Shown: one piece after another, positions 4,737 through 33,029 of the stretch | Layout: every line of letters begins with the position of its first letter | Numbering within the stretch: the first letter of the stretch is position 1 | From: Bacillota bacterium | Lineage (GTDB): Bacteria > Bacillota > Clostridia > Christensenellales > Pumilibacteraceae | Reading direction: 5' to 3' | Length of the DNA stretch: 33,796 nt | Assembly: GCA_009783985.1 (NCBI GenBank) | Contig: WQVM01000011.1 | Coordinates: 1 to 33,796 of the forward strand | The notes under the pieces: model-generated | The model's input: the letters and a program-made list of their open reading frames with translations, nothing else | What the model was told of the DNA's origin: nothing | Database searches by the model: none | Program-made: the position numbers and the translations under genes

Positions 4737-4814
4737 AGTTGTAGGGGCGGGCGTCCCCGACCGCCTAATAACAATTACTATTCAGGCGGTCGAGGACGCC
4801 CGCCCCTACAACTT
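4737..4814. repeat. GC-rich inverted repeat (GTAGGGGCGGGCG family) in the acpP leader
   Basis: Two arms of about 28 nt, AGTTGTAGGGGCGGGCGTCC... at 4737-4766 and its complement ...GGACGCCCGCCCCTACAA at 4784-4814, have about one mismatch and a 17-nt AT-rich loop (AATAACAATTACTATTC). The same family recurs at 10.7-11.15 kb, 27.7 kb and 28.9 kb. Here it would form a strong hairpin in the 5' leader of the acpP transcript. No U-run follows it, so it is not a simple terminator. Confidence 0.9.
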
Positions 4815-17697: not shown

Positions 17698-17753
17698 GTC
17701 TTCGGGCTACAGAGAGTGTATTTGCTACAGTCCGTTGCCTCAACACAAAAAGC

Positions 17754-17839
17754 CATTGCGAGGAGCGAAAGCGACGAAGCAATCCCACGAGTAGAACACT
17801 TCACATGGGATTGCTTCGTCGCTTTCGCTCCTCGCAATG
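17754..17839. repeat. GTCATTGCGAGGAGC-type palindrome, intergenic copy
   Basis: The arms CATTGCGAGGAGCGAAAGCG...CAATCCCA and TGGGATTGCTTCGTCGCTTT...GCAATG are perfect complements of 34 nt around an 18-nt loop. It is the intact relative of the diverged copy inside scfB. The rest of the 300-nt gap (17662-17963) holds no gene I can support, only a short open stretch in frame after the next gene's stop. Confidence 0.93.
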
Positions 17840-17963
17840 ACTTTCATCCGATATTCTCAAAGGTGTGTCGATATGTTGAAAATTGTCATTTTGCTGGCTT
17901 AAATTTCCACCCGTCAGGCATCGCAGTCGTACCTTTCTTCAAACTTCTAACACCTCTATAAAT

Positions 17964-23375: not shown

Positions 23376-23426
23376 TTAATAATATATGAGTGTTAAATAG
23401 TTAATATTGATTAGAAATGATAGATT

Positions 23427-23603
23427 AGACCTGTTCTTCTAACCTAGAGTGATTAGATAGCGAGTGGCTTTTTGTGTCAGTATAGTCTCCAAAAAGCCTG
23501 CGTCTTGGAGCATAGCACCGCTATGTGACAAGTTTTGGAGGCTTATACTGACGCAAATTTAAGACACCGCTAGATAGTCGCTATAGGTTAGAAGAACAGG
23601 TCT
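23427..23603. repeat. Structured four-stem element, copy 1
   Basis: A 177-nt nested inverted repeat. The outer stem is 20 bp perfect (AGACCTGTTCTTCTAACCTA and complement at 23584-23603). Next is a stem TAGCGAGTG with CACCGCTA. The inner stem is GTCAGTATAGTCTCCAAAA (23476-23494) with its near-complement at 23533-23552. The apical hairpin CTTGG-A-GCATAGC-ACC-GCTATGT-GA-CAAG closes it. A second copy at 29077-29248 shares loops and core but has different, still complementary arms. The element lies between GT8 and acyltransferase genes and abuts the GT8 stop codon. It may be a structured RNA or a mobile palindrome; I recognise no named family. Confidence 0.85.
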
Positions 23604-23604
23604 T

Positions 23605-27550: not shown

Positions 27551-27735
27551 CCTCCCCTTTTAGACCATTGTTGTTCAAAGGGTGTGAAGATAAATCTATC
27601 CTAATTATCGTCATTACTACGACTTTTTTTCTAAGGCGGATTGCTTCGTTCCTCGCCCTCGCAAAGGATAATGGGATAAGTTTCAAATGCTTGCCCCTAC
27701 ACTTGGGAAAGCAACTACATTAGAAAACCCAATCG

Positions 27736-27829
27736 TAGGGGCGGGCGTCCCCGACCGCCCGAACAACATTATCCACATTAAAAAAATAAGGATAATACTA
27801 TTAGGCGATCGGGGACGCCCGCCCCTACG
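27736..27829. repeat. GC-rich hairpin (GTAGGGGCGGGCG family)
   Basis: The arms TCGTAGGGGCGGGCGTCCCC and GGGGACGCCCGCCCCTACG enclose GACCGCCCGAAC and TATTAGGCGATC with an AT-rich centre. The 352-nt gap 27551-27902 otherwise holds only a degraded half of a GTCATTGCGAGG palindrome (about 27640-27665) and a broken GC-rich half near 27690-27706; no gene is seen. Confidence 0.85.
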
Positions 27830-28916: not shown

Positions 28917-29022
28917 AAGTATTCGGGACGCCGAGGACGGCGTCCCCTACGACTAGACAACAGACAGCACTTGAGTAGTCCTATTTGTAGAGGACACCGT
29001 CCTCGGCGTCCCGAATATCGTC
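28917..29022. repeat. GC-rich inverted repeat (ATTCGGGACGCCG family)
   Basis: The arms TATTCGGGACGCCGAGGACG at the left and CGTCCTCGGCGTCCCGAATA at the right are complementary, with inner segments GCGTCCCCTAC and GTAGAGGACACC also pairing. The orientation of the GTAGGG motif is inside-out relative to the copies at 4.7 and 10.7-11.1 kb. Confidence 0.85.
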
Positions 29023-29031
29023 ATACTACAC

Positions 29032-29075
29032 AAAAAAGTCCTATTATAGCACTTACGCTACAATAGGACTTTTTT
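29032..29075. terminator. Bidirectional intrinsic terminator between the zinc-ribbon gene and tex
   Basis: AAAAAAGTCCTATT and AATAGGACTTTTTT form a 14-bp stem around a 16-nt loop. It can stop transcription of the zinc-ribbon gene on the plus strand and of tex on the minus strand. Confidence 0.88.
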
Positions 29076-29076
29076 G

Positions 29077-29248
29077 AGGCTTATTTGCTGACCTAAAGTG
29101 ATTAGATAGTGTGTGAATTTTTGTGATGTGGATTGCCCTCAAAAGCCTGCGCCTTGGCGCGTAGCAACGCTACGCAACAAGTTTGAGAGCAATCCACATC
29201 GCTAATAAGACACCGCTAAATGATTGCTTTAGGTCAGTAAATAAGCCT
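29077..29248. repeat. Structured four-stem element, copy 2
   Basis: The outer stem pairs AGGCTTATTTGCTGACCTAA with its complement at 29227-29248 (22 bp, one mismatch). The next stem is TAGTGTGTG with CACCGCTA. The inner stem is GATGTGGATTGCCCTCAAA (29125-29143) with its complement at 29182-29200 (one mismatch). The apical hairpin CTTGGC-GCGTAGC-AAC-GCTACGC-AA-CAAG follows. It shares AGTGATTAGATAG, AAAAGCCTGCG, CTTGG and TAAGACACCGCTA with the copy at 23427-23603 in the same orientation, while the paired arms differ and stay complementary. The tex stop codon (29247-29249) overlaps the last two bases. Confidence 0.85.
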
Positions 29249-31880
29249 ATTTCTTATCCATTCCGTACTTGCCTTTGAGGGCTGCCATCATTTCATCTAT
29301 GCTTTGAGGCTTAGATGATGTTTCTTGTTTTTGTACGGGTTGCTTGTCTATATAACTACCTGAGAAATTATTGCGAGGCGGGCGGTCTCCACGGGGAGCA
29401 AAGTTAGGTCTGTCGCCTCTGTCCTCACGGGGCTTAAAGCCCCCTTCTCGTCTTACGGCTTGCTCTTGGCTAAGCGGTCTGACATCTTCTATCGCACCGC
29501 TTTTTTCTAGCTCCTCGTATTCTTTTTCTGCAAGTATAATAAGCTCTCGCTCTTGCTCTCTGGTCATTCTTACCGGTCTGTCACCTTGCGGTCTATCGGC
29601 TTTTGGGCGGTCTGACTTAGGTCTGTCAACCTTCTTTTGGTCATCAAGGAAGTTGCGGTTGACTACACGCTTAGCTCCCCCGTCCTCTTTTTTGACTTGC
29701 GGTACGGCGTGTTCTGACTTCATAGTCAAACCGATTCTGTTTTTGGCTACATCAACCTCTAGCACCCTAACTTTGACTGCTTGCCCTACTTTAAGTTTTT
29801 CGGACGGATGTTTGATATAGTCGTCGCTGATTTGGCTCAGGTGTAGCAAGCCGTCATGATGGACACCAATATCCACAAAAGCACCAAAGTCAATAACATT
29901 ACGCACAACACCGTCAAGAATCATACCTGCCTCTAAATCCTTGATTTCCATAAGGTCGGCTCTAAGCACAGGCGGTGGCAAGCTGTCTCTTATATCACGA
30001 CCGGGACGGAGCATTTCCTCCACGCAGTCAATAAGTGTTACCGCACCGATACCGACTTCCAAAGCAACTACCTCGGTTCCGTCCGCAGTTATTTTATTTT
30101 TGACTTCGCCTATAACACTCGGCTCAACAGTCTTGACGCCGTATTTTTCTAACACCTTATTGATAGCAACATAAGCCTCTGGGTGGACACCCGTATTATC
30201 AAGCGGGTTGCTTCCGCCAAGTATTCTTAAAAAGCCGGCGCATTGCTCATACGCTTTCGGACCTAGCTTAGGGACTTTGCGTAATTCTTCTCTGGTCTCA
30301 AAAGGTTTAGCTTTGCGATACTCGGCAATATTTTTTGCTATAGTAGAGTTAAGTCCTGCAACCCGTCCAAGCAAACTCGGACTTGCCGTATTAAGGTCAA
30401 CACCTACGCTGTTAACGCAATCCTCAACTACACCCTCTAACGCCTCGGTCAATCTCTTTTGCGGCATATCGTGCTGATACTGTCCTACACCGATACTCTT
30501 AACATCAATCTTGATAAGCTCGGCAAGCGGGTCGATAAGTCGTCTGGCGATAGAGATAGCACCCCTAATCGTAACATCATAATCAGGAAACTCCTCCGCA
30601 CCCACTTTGCTCGCACTATAAACACTCGCCCCAGCCTCGTTGACTACCGCATAGCTGATAGGCAGATTATTTTCTTTGATAAGTCCGGCTACAAAAATCT
30701 CTGTCTCTTTGCTTGCTGTACCGTTACCTATACTGATAACATTAACCTTGTGTTTATTGATTAAACCGACAACCTTAAGCGCCGCATCCTTTGAACGCTC
30801 TTCACTCATAGTTACATAGATAACGCCGTGGTCAAGAACATTTCCGCTGCTGTCAACAACAGCCATCTTACATCCTGTACGGTATCCGGGGTCAAGCCCA
30901 AGCACAACCTTGCCTTTAAGAGGAGGTTGCATAAGCAAAGGTTTAAGATTAGACTCAAACATCTTAATCGCCTGCTCGTTAGCTATATCGGTAAGGTCGC
31001 TCCTCACCTCACGCTCAATGGACGGGAAAATCAATCTGGCATAACTGTCCTTAATTGCCTCATCTATAATAGCGTCAAATCCACTTGACTTCTTAAAAGC
31101 TTGCGTCATAGCGGCGATACAACGCTCATCGTCTACCTTGATAGAGGCTTTGAGGCATTCCTCATTTTCGCCCCTGTTGATAGCCAAAATCCTATGCGAC
31201 GGAATAGACCCGATACGCTCCTCGTACTCTTTGTACATCTCGTAAGTGTGTATCTTGTCTTTAAGTTTTTTCTTAGCCTCTTCGTCATCTTCCTTAAAGC
31301 TAAAGCAAGACGCAATAGAACCCTCAGCATTAAGAATCCGCCTAAGGTTTTTACGGTTAGCCGCATCGTCGCTCATTATCTCGGCGATAATATCTCTTGC
31401 ACCGTCAATACAATCTTTGGTCGTTTCAAGCCCTTTTTCGGCATCGATATACGGAGCGGCAAGCTCGTCAAGATTTACCTCTTGCATTTCTTGTGCCCAA
31501 ATAATATCGGCAAGCGGTTGCAAGCCTTTTTCGATAGCCACACTCGCCCGTGTTTTCTTTTTGGGCTTATACGGTCTATAAATATCCTCAACTTCGGTAA
31601 GAGTTTGGGCGGCGGCAAGTGCAAGAGCTAACTCGTCCGTCCATTTGCCTTGCTCGGTAATAGACGCGGTTACTTCCTCTTTACGCTTAACTAAATTCTG
31701 CAAATAACTCAAACGCTCTGCAAAATCACGCAAAACTTGGTCGTCACACTCGCCGTGCATTTCTTTCCTATATCTCGCAATAAAAGGAATAGTGTTGCCC
31801 TCGCCGATAAGCGAAATTATATTCGCACTATACTCAGGCTTTAGCTTAAACTCTTCTGATAACTTAAGGGTAATGTCCAT
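29247..31880 (-). CDS. tex: Tex-type RNA-binding transcriptional accessory protein with a long basic tail
   Basis: This 877-aa protein has the Tex order: an N-terminal helical region, YqgF/RNase H-like domain (VVLGLDPGYRTGCKMAVVD..., ISIGNGTASKETE), HhH region (LNSTIAKNIAEYRKAKPF, RKVPKLGPKAYEQCAGFLRI) and an S1 domain (GMILDGVVRNVIDFGAFVDIGVHHDGLLHLSQIS) ending near residue 720. Typical Tex stops soon after; this one adds about 155 residues with DRPKSDRPKADRPQGDRP repeats, RGD-rich segments and a C-terminal EMMAALKGKYGMDKK. Such tails often bind nucleic acid. The start ATG at 31880 has a distant GGAG. Its promoter lies about 90 nt upstream. The stop codon overlaps the structured element. Confidence 0.93.
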   Translation of the reverse strand: MDITLKLSEEFKLKPEYSANIISLIGEGNTIPFIARYRKEMHGECDDQVLRDFAERLSYLQNLVKRKEEVTASITEQGKWTDELALALAAAQTLTEVEDIYRPYKPKKKTRASVAIEKGLQPLADIIWAQEMQEVNLDELAAPYIDAEKGLETTKDCIDGARDIIAEIMSDDAANRKNLRRILNAEGSIASCFSFKEDDEEAKKKLKDKIHTYEMYKEYEERIGSIPSHRILAINRGENEECLKASIKVDDERCIAAMTQAFKKSSGFDAIIDEAIKDSYARLIFPSIEREVRSDLTDIANEQAIKMFESNLKPLLMQPPLKGKVVLGLDPGYRTGCKMAVVDSSGNVLDHGVIYVTMSEERSKDAALKVVGLINKHKVNVISIGNGTASKETEIFVAGLIKENNLPISYAVVNEAGASVYSASKVGAEEFPDYDVTIRGAISIARRLIDPLAELIKIDVKSIGVGQYQHDMPQKRLTEALEGVVEDCVNSVGVDLNTASPSLLGRVAGLNSTIAKNIAEYRKAKPFETREELRKVPKLGPKAYEQCAGFLRILGGSNPLDNTGVHPEAYVAINKVLEKYGVKTVEPSVIGEVKNKITADGTEVVALEVGIGAVTLIDCVEEMLRPGRDIRDSLPPPVLRADLMEIKDLEAGMILDGVVRNVIDFGAFVDIGVHHDGLLHLSQISDDYIKHPSEKLKVGQAVKVRVLEVDVAKNRIGLTMKSEHAVPQVKKEDGGAKRVVNRNFLDDQKKVDRPKSDRPKADRPQGDRPVRMTREQERELIILAEKEYEELEKSGAIEDVRPLSQEQAVRREGGFKPREDRGDRPNFAPRGDRPPRNNFSGSYIDKQPVQKQETSSKPQSIDEMMAALKGKYGMDKK

Positions 31881-32180: not shown

Positions 32181-32273
32181 GGTGTCATTTCGACCGAAGC
32201 GGAGAAATCTCCTCATTAACGGTATTATAACACAATTTTGATGATATTTCTCCGCTTCGGTCGAAATGACACC
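32181..32273. repeat. GTCATTTCGACCGAAGCGGAG palindrome
   Basis: The arms GGTGTCATTTCGACCGAAGC... (32181-32208) and its perfect 28-nt complement (32246-32273) enclose a 37-nt loop. Palindromes of this sequence are widespread in bacterial genomes. The rest of the 510-nt gap 31881-32390 holds the terminator, tex promoter and candidate RNA; I see nothing further. Confidence 0.9.
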
Positions 32274-32919: not shown

Positions 32920-33029
32920 AACACCCCGCCCCTACGGGGCACCCCTCTTAAAAGAGGGGAATTTTTTGCAGGTTTACACTTCACAATTCCCCTCTTTTAA
33001 GAGGGGTGCCCCGTAGGGGCGGGGTGTTT
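32920..33029. repeat. 44-bp-arm perfect palindrome between metK and pth
   Basis: The left arm AACACCCCGCCCCTACGGGG...GGGGAATT (32920-32963) is exactly complementary to the right arm AATTCCCCTCTTTTAAGAGG...GGGGTGTT (32986-33029) with a 22-nt loop (TTTTTTGCAGGTTTACACTT...). It starts next to the metK stop (33030) and ends 2 nt before the pth ATG, so it fills the whole gap and supplies the pth ribosome binding site. Confidence 0.95.

Follow-up and report, generated by a model that had tools for sequence, protein, structure and literature searches.

MITEs are usually regarded as inert, reduced transposons for which only the ends are required. Imperfect palindromes in which the structure of one strand outweighs the sequence are known from integron attC sites and REP elements, and these are not bounded by transposon terminal inverted repeats (TIRs) with target duplications. 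The Correia/NEMIS elements are a different family, belonging to one genus. MITEs of the IS5 family are also known, such as BrickBuilt and its relatives in Porphyromonas gingivalis (PMC4596501). In the literature covered, which was mostly open access, we found no description of the family reported here, nor of a fold conserved across phyla in any MITE.

The window analyzed here is a 33,796-nucleotide stretch from a genome of the Pumilibacteraceae (Clostridia). The two structured elements that an earlier note had reported in it, A and B, are both present at the positions given in Table 1, and they share AGTGATTAGATAG, AAAAGCCTGCG, CTTGG...CAAG, and TAAGACACCGCTA in the same order. The inner arms, which the note had called unrelated, differ at nearly all bases between A and B, and each arm pairs with its own partner if a single bulged base is permitted. 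The apical stem changes from GCATAGC/GCTATGT to GCGTAGC/GCTACGC with its pairing kept, and an apex resembling the latter was found again in relatives. The MFE of the + strand was −104.1 kcal/mol for A and −95.7 kcal/mol for B (z = −14.2 each, with 0 of 200 shuffles as good), whereas the − strand folded more weakly (−80.9 and −82.1 kcal/mol, a gap of 14–23 kcal/mol). At the paired sites of a three-copy alignment from the window genome (A3), G·T and A·C occurred in a ratio of 17:1. A match to a known Rfam family above the gathering score was absent for the window and for ten structured loci, in agreement with the note's statement that it knew of no named family with this core. A retron ncRNA was rejected because no recognized RT occurs among the neighboring genes of A and B (IMP dehydrogenase, acyltransferase, GT8, GH36, HTH, and Tex), and the tRNA/tmRNA and terminator readings of the hairpins were rejected as well. 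The overlap of the B terminus with the tex stop codon has parallels in seven other insertions, in which the gene end lies at the same offset (distance −3). A short inverted repeat with A and T runs, possibly a two-way terminator, adjoins B at 29031–29076.

Table 1. Positions of elements A and B and their parts in the window. R3 is the covariance model described in the text.
Feature	Position	Strand	Basis
Element A, full length	23427..23603	+ (sense, folded strand)	MFE, R3 match
A left TIR, AGACCTGTT (family form AGACTTGTT)	23427..23435	+	sequence, family termini
A right TIR, reads AACAGGTCT on +	23595..23603	-	sequence, family termini
A conserved 5' loop strand, AGTGATTAGATAG	23448..23460	+	
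A first tandem G-A mismatch (GA and partner GA)	23456-23457 and 23573-23574	+	
A inner stem, 5' strand (TCAGTATAGTCTCCAAAA)	23477..23494	+	paired; sequence differs from B
A inner stem, 3' strand (TTTTGGAGGCTTATACTGA)	23533..23551	+	
A apical hairpin, GCATAGC-ACC-GCTATGT	23510..23526	+	
A conserved 3' loop strand, TTTAAGACACCGCTA region, includes TAAGACACCGCTA	23557..23572	+	
Element B, full length	29077..29248	+ (sense strand)	MFE, R3 match
B left TIR, AGGCTTATT	29077..29085	+	
B right TIR, reads AATAAGCCT on +	29240..29248	-	
tex stop codon TAG, from B terminal AG and flanking T	29247..29249	-	Tex ORF 29247-31880 -

The window genome is a 1.6-Mb MAG with a completeness of about 88%. A BLAST search with element A found a third, internally deleted copy of 72 nt in it (C2:63976-64047), and across 150 relatives and plasmids it returned only one chance-level match outside that genome. 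A covariance model was therefore needed. A model of the outer shell (R1) yielded nothing beyond the short copy and a weak match to A. The model built from three window-genome copies (R2), the kind of search that the earlier note had proposed, detected three more full copies in the window genome and others in other genera and another family. The window genome has at least seven structured copies in all. Reading outward from the R2 matches revealed shared ends of the form (T)AGACTTGTT...AACAAGTCT(A), and a pattern search of the relatives by those ends yielded clean full-length elements, mostly of 164–176 nt, together with shortened ones of 72–98 nt whose interior was gone. The window genome belongs to the same order as G139, and the element of G139 also occurs in the assembly of Clostridia bacterium PG1894_211 (L154). 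Against these ends, the outer arms of A and B are not unrelated as had been claimed: their pairing is real, and AGACCTGTT and AGGCTTATT are decayed copies of the repeat AGACTTGTT, which had escaped notice because of that decay. The bases that follow the repeat also align (A, AACCTAGAG; B, GACCTAAAG). The remaining divergence of the arms is attributable to the age of the family, in which only pairing has been kept.

When one genome per species was searched for TAGACTTGTT N130-160 AACAAGTCTA, at least 119 stretches were detected. Among the matches listed, these were mostly 161–165 nt long and were carried by Saprospiraceae, Chitinophagales, Lewinella, Thiotrichales, Clostridiales, Defluviitaleaceae, several Patescibacteria, and others; some end-sharing stretches, such as those in Thiomargarita, Brachyspira, Streptococcus, and Methylomonas, count by their ends alone and not by fold. 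A large family of palindromes of ~162 nt with these ends is present in Clostridia, Bacteroidota, and Thiotrichales, and probably also in Patescibacteria. The ends numbered 187 in Thiotrichales bacterium BB31 (G153, 5.3 Mb) and 110 in a Clostridiales genome (G151); the 187 ends of the former constitute a natural mutation-accumulation set. Internally deleted copies of 44–98 nt were observed at G139:C8:52462, C11:18551, C13:43474, and C19:24451, at G012:C11:5064, and at L009 1970-2051, some of them apparently joined at microhomology (TTTTCGCAA). Conversely, two copies in G012 (L023 and L027; 217 and 208 nt) have a rod that is ~40–50 bases longer.

The same ends are also found around other palindromes. 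The window contains further long, near-perfect intergenic palindromes (32181-32273, 28920-29017, 32920-33028, 17749-17844, 4737-4813, and 27734-27829), and interiors like theirs sit within AGASTTGTT termini on contigs C7, C9, C12, and C48 of the window genome (G000), indicating that several unrelated palindromes share a single set of ends. In Hymenobacter (L071, L080, L086, L093, L094, L181, L187, L203, and L206), the same ends enclose a 'GTCATGCTGAGC...' palindrome with no strand asymmetry, and four of these insertions have 3-bp duplications (CGT, TAT, TGT, and AGT).

The termini of the family are those of a transposon. Among 121 pattern-selected elements, an A-N-T 3-bp target duplication was exact in 103, and its middle base was equal in 112 against 51 expected, with 1000 shuffles reaching at most 67. 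The middle base was nearly always A or T (A-W-T), and at A and B the duplications have decayed to ATT/TTT and TTG/ATT. Such 3-bp ANT duplications characterize the ISL2 group within the IS5 family. IS5-family genes (PF13359/PF01609, NF033581) end 20–22 bp from AGAGTTGTTGCG or AGACTTGTTGCG (L214 and L226), and another ends about 8 bp from AGAGTTGTC (L289). One such end lies beside IS5-type genes in two element-bearing genomes, and both ends together were found only in diverged IS5 relatives on plasmids, which have TAGACCTCTT-like termini. A search for a complete IS with exactly AGACTTGTT ends in element-rich genomes gave none, and the roughly 88% of the window genome represented by the MAG yielded no PF13359 gene. 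Two candidates were discarded: a 1.4-kb 'autonomous element' at L105 proved to be a chance pair of terminal repeats around a LexA-like gene, and L210 proved to be an IS982-type gene whose ends are its own and unrelated to those of the family. Elements A and B are old copies of a small, gene-less MITE with IS5-type ends, and the ends, duplication, size, and copy number together probably place the family among MITEs of the IS5/ISL2 type. The earlier argument that a simple MITE would keep its arms alike is not supported, since the elements combine terminal repeats of the IS type with a 3-bp target duplication, many copies per genome, and derivatives that arose by internal deletion. For the termini there is indeed a match to an IS end, which the note had named as evidence against its reading, but the conserved fold is not accounted for by this match.

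In 17 Bacteroidota elements, RNAalifold predicted 65 pairs, 39 of which had changed on both sides, including the exchange of an A6/T6 run for T6/A6. In this set, 96.4% of the cells were paired, against 45–58% in slid-structure controls, and 0 of 500 shuffles attained any of five covariation measures. On the sense strand, G·T and A·C cells numbered 103:3 in Bacteroidota and 105:9 in Thiotrichales. Each group had at first been oriented according to its folding energy, and both R2 and a model from Bacteroidota only (R3) agree with that orientation. The Hymenobacter elements, used as a control with the same ends and another interior, had no fold asymmetry (mean |dE|, 2.4 vs 15.9 kcal/mol). Among the 2x2 internal loops, GA/GA strongly predominated, with 72 instances spread over 57 of 98 elements; energy-based strand choice favors it over its complement TC/TC and not over other mismatches. 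Several columns have G·U as their majority or invariant pair (48-118 in alignment A9 and 60-105 in alignment A10), and the Thiotrichales consensus has seven fixed G·U pairs and no A·C. In a double-stranded palindrome, a mutation is equally likely to create G·T on either strand, with A·C on the other, so the excess of G·T on the same homologous strand in separate groups shows selection on one folded strand. These results show that the whole element, unlike an ordinary MITE, has been selected to fold as one particular strand, and the earlier proposal of selection on a folded single strand, made from two copies, is thus borne out by covariation and strand-specific G·T retention in many copies from several phyla.

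Quasi-palindrome correction is known to perfect hairpins, and the elements could in principle be ordinary MITEs whose arms are kept complementary by template switching or gene conversion between them, with a fold that has no role. Some copies do have very perfect arms (e.g., C44), and the same-ended Hymenobacter palindromes are near perfect and not strand-biased, which favors this reading. However, correction at the DNA level treats both strands alike and would erase mismatches, whereas the GA/GA mismatches are conserved here and unrelated groups have more G·T than A·C on one strand, and we consider this explanation decidedly unlikely.

The elements of the window and those of Bacteroidota are homologous. 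R3 matched A at 23426-23604 on the + strand with 65.8 bits (41.1 bits on the − strand) and B at 29076-29249 on the + strand with 68.6 bits (44.6 bits on the − strand). In the reverse direction, R2 matched a Saprospiraceae element (L099) with 67 bits on its better-folding strand. The same-ended Hymenobacter palindromes also scored high with R3, mostly 59–82 bits, so the specific part of the signal is the preference for one strand, which was about 24 bits for A and B and at most about 13 bits in Hymenobacter.

Variants within single genomes bear on the step at which selection acts. They were drawn from 49 distinct copies in one Thiotrichales genome and 22 in one Clostridiales genome. Uncompensated G·T and A·C changes numbered 16:22 in single-copy variants and 12:4 in variants of at least four copies in the same genome (Fisher p = 0.038); in G153 alone, singletons compared with all shared variants gave p = 0.46. 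The skew is greater again among fixed pairs, with the seven G·U and no A·C of the Thiotrichales consensus. Resident copies seem to decay neutrally while spreading copies keep the fold, which suggests, in what is a weak test (p = 0.04), that the fold serves propagation and not the host.

Service to the host is an alternative. Resident copies might act as sense RNA, as a riboregulator, an RNase III site, or an mRNA 3' element, with host selection keeping the fold. A strand-specific fold with fixed G·U pairs would agree with this, as would the many copies that adjoin gene ends, and the Correia elements provide a MITE-like precedent with effects on RNase III processing and promoters (PMC2649163). 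However, the changes in single copies are strand-symmetric, as though resident copies were neutral. Furthermore, a consensus scan found no convincing sense-strand promoter, orientation relative to the neighboring genes was mixed without clear bias (22 (-,-), 21 (-,+), 15 (+,+), and 8 (+,-)), and no significant replication-strand bias was detected by GC skew, so that transcription is unsupported. We regard a host RNA as quite unlikely.

A strand-specific fold without transcription signals might instead mean that the sense strand works as single-stranded DNA, as in REP and attC, through lagging-strand extrusion or a single-stranded step of transposition. DNA likewise tolerates tandem G·A and G·T. 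Against this, the TIRs, 3-bp duplication, and DDE transposase point to double-strand cut-and-paste, GC skew gave no significant replication-strand bias, and the majority or invariant G·U columns fit RNA better; this reading is unlikely. The same G·U columns, although not decisive, make RNA more likely than single-stranded DNA as the folded form, by about two to one in our estimate.

With slightly better than even confidence, we explain the whole as a trans-mobilized MITE whose one-strand fold acts in cis in its propagation. In such a model, the transposase that moved A and B would have been provided in trans; it would recognize (T)AGACTTGTT and leave a duplication of its 3-bp A-W-T target. The whole ~162-nt element is selected to fold as a long rod of about 65 pairs with conserved loops, among them tandem G·A mismatches, an asymmetric internal loop, and an apical hairpin of the TAGC/GCTA type. 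The transposase or some factor of the host may recognize the folded sense strand in cis, either as sense RNA or as transiently single-stranded sense DNA, and a copy unable to fold would then fail to spread, placing selection at the propagation step. Several results weigh against this model: transcription is unsupported, G·T is also accepted in ssDNA, the within-genome test is weak, the duplications at A and B have decayed, and neither a complete IS with exactly these ends in an element-rich genome nor a PF13359 gene in the window genome came to light. That IS5/DDE elements in several phyla depend for propagation, in cis, on an RNA (or single strand) folded from end to end is a more specific claim, and one that we put forward as possible but doubtful.

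A one-strand fold kept across Clostridia, Bacteroidota, and Thiotrichales implies a functional interior. If it proves true that RNA takes part in DDE transposition, or that the element exploits a host protein that binds RNA or ssDNA, this would add a new layer to transposon biology, and genomes with about 100 copies make the idea directly testable. The family also adds a structured nucleic acid to those available for genome annotation, Rfam having no such entry.

Among known systems, BrickBuilt resembles the present family in being short, gene-less, and multi-copy, with IS5-like terminal repeats and predicted stem–loops; the present family has, in contrast, a strand-specific covarying fold over the whole element and a near-constant length across phyla, features that did not turn up in the parts of the BrickBuilt description covered (PMC4596501). 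The ISL2 group of IS5 (e.g., ISCaa3, PMC3196728) shares the A-N-T 3-bp duplication, and in two element-bearing genomes one end with the repeat lies beside a DDE_Tnp_4-type transposase gene, whereas the present elements lack a transposase and no whole autonomous copy with exactly these ends was recovered. The Correia/NEMIS elements of Neisseria likewise have MITE-like inverted repeats and a conserved core, and act on promoters and RNA processing (PMC2649163); activity has been measured there, whereas the present family is known from sequence alone. Unlike attC and REP, the present elements are bounded by TIRs with target duplications.
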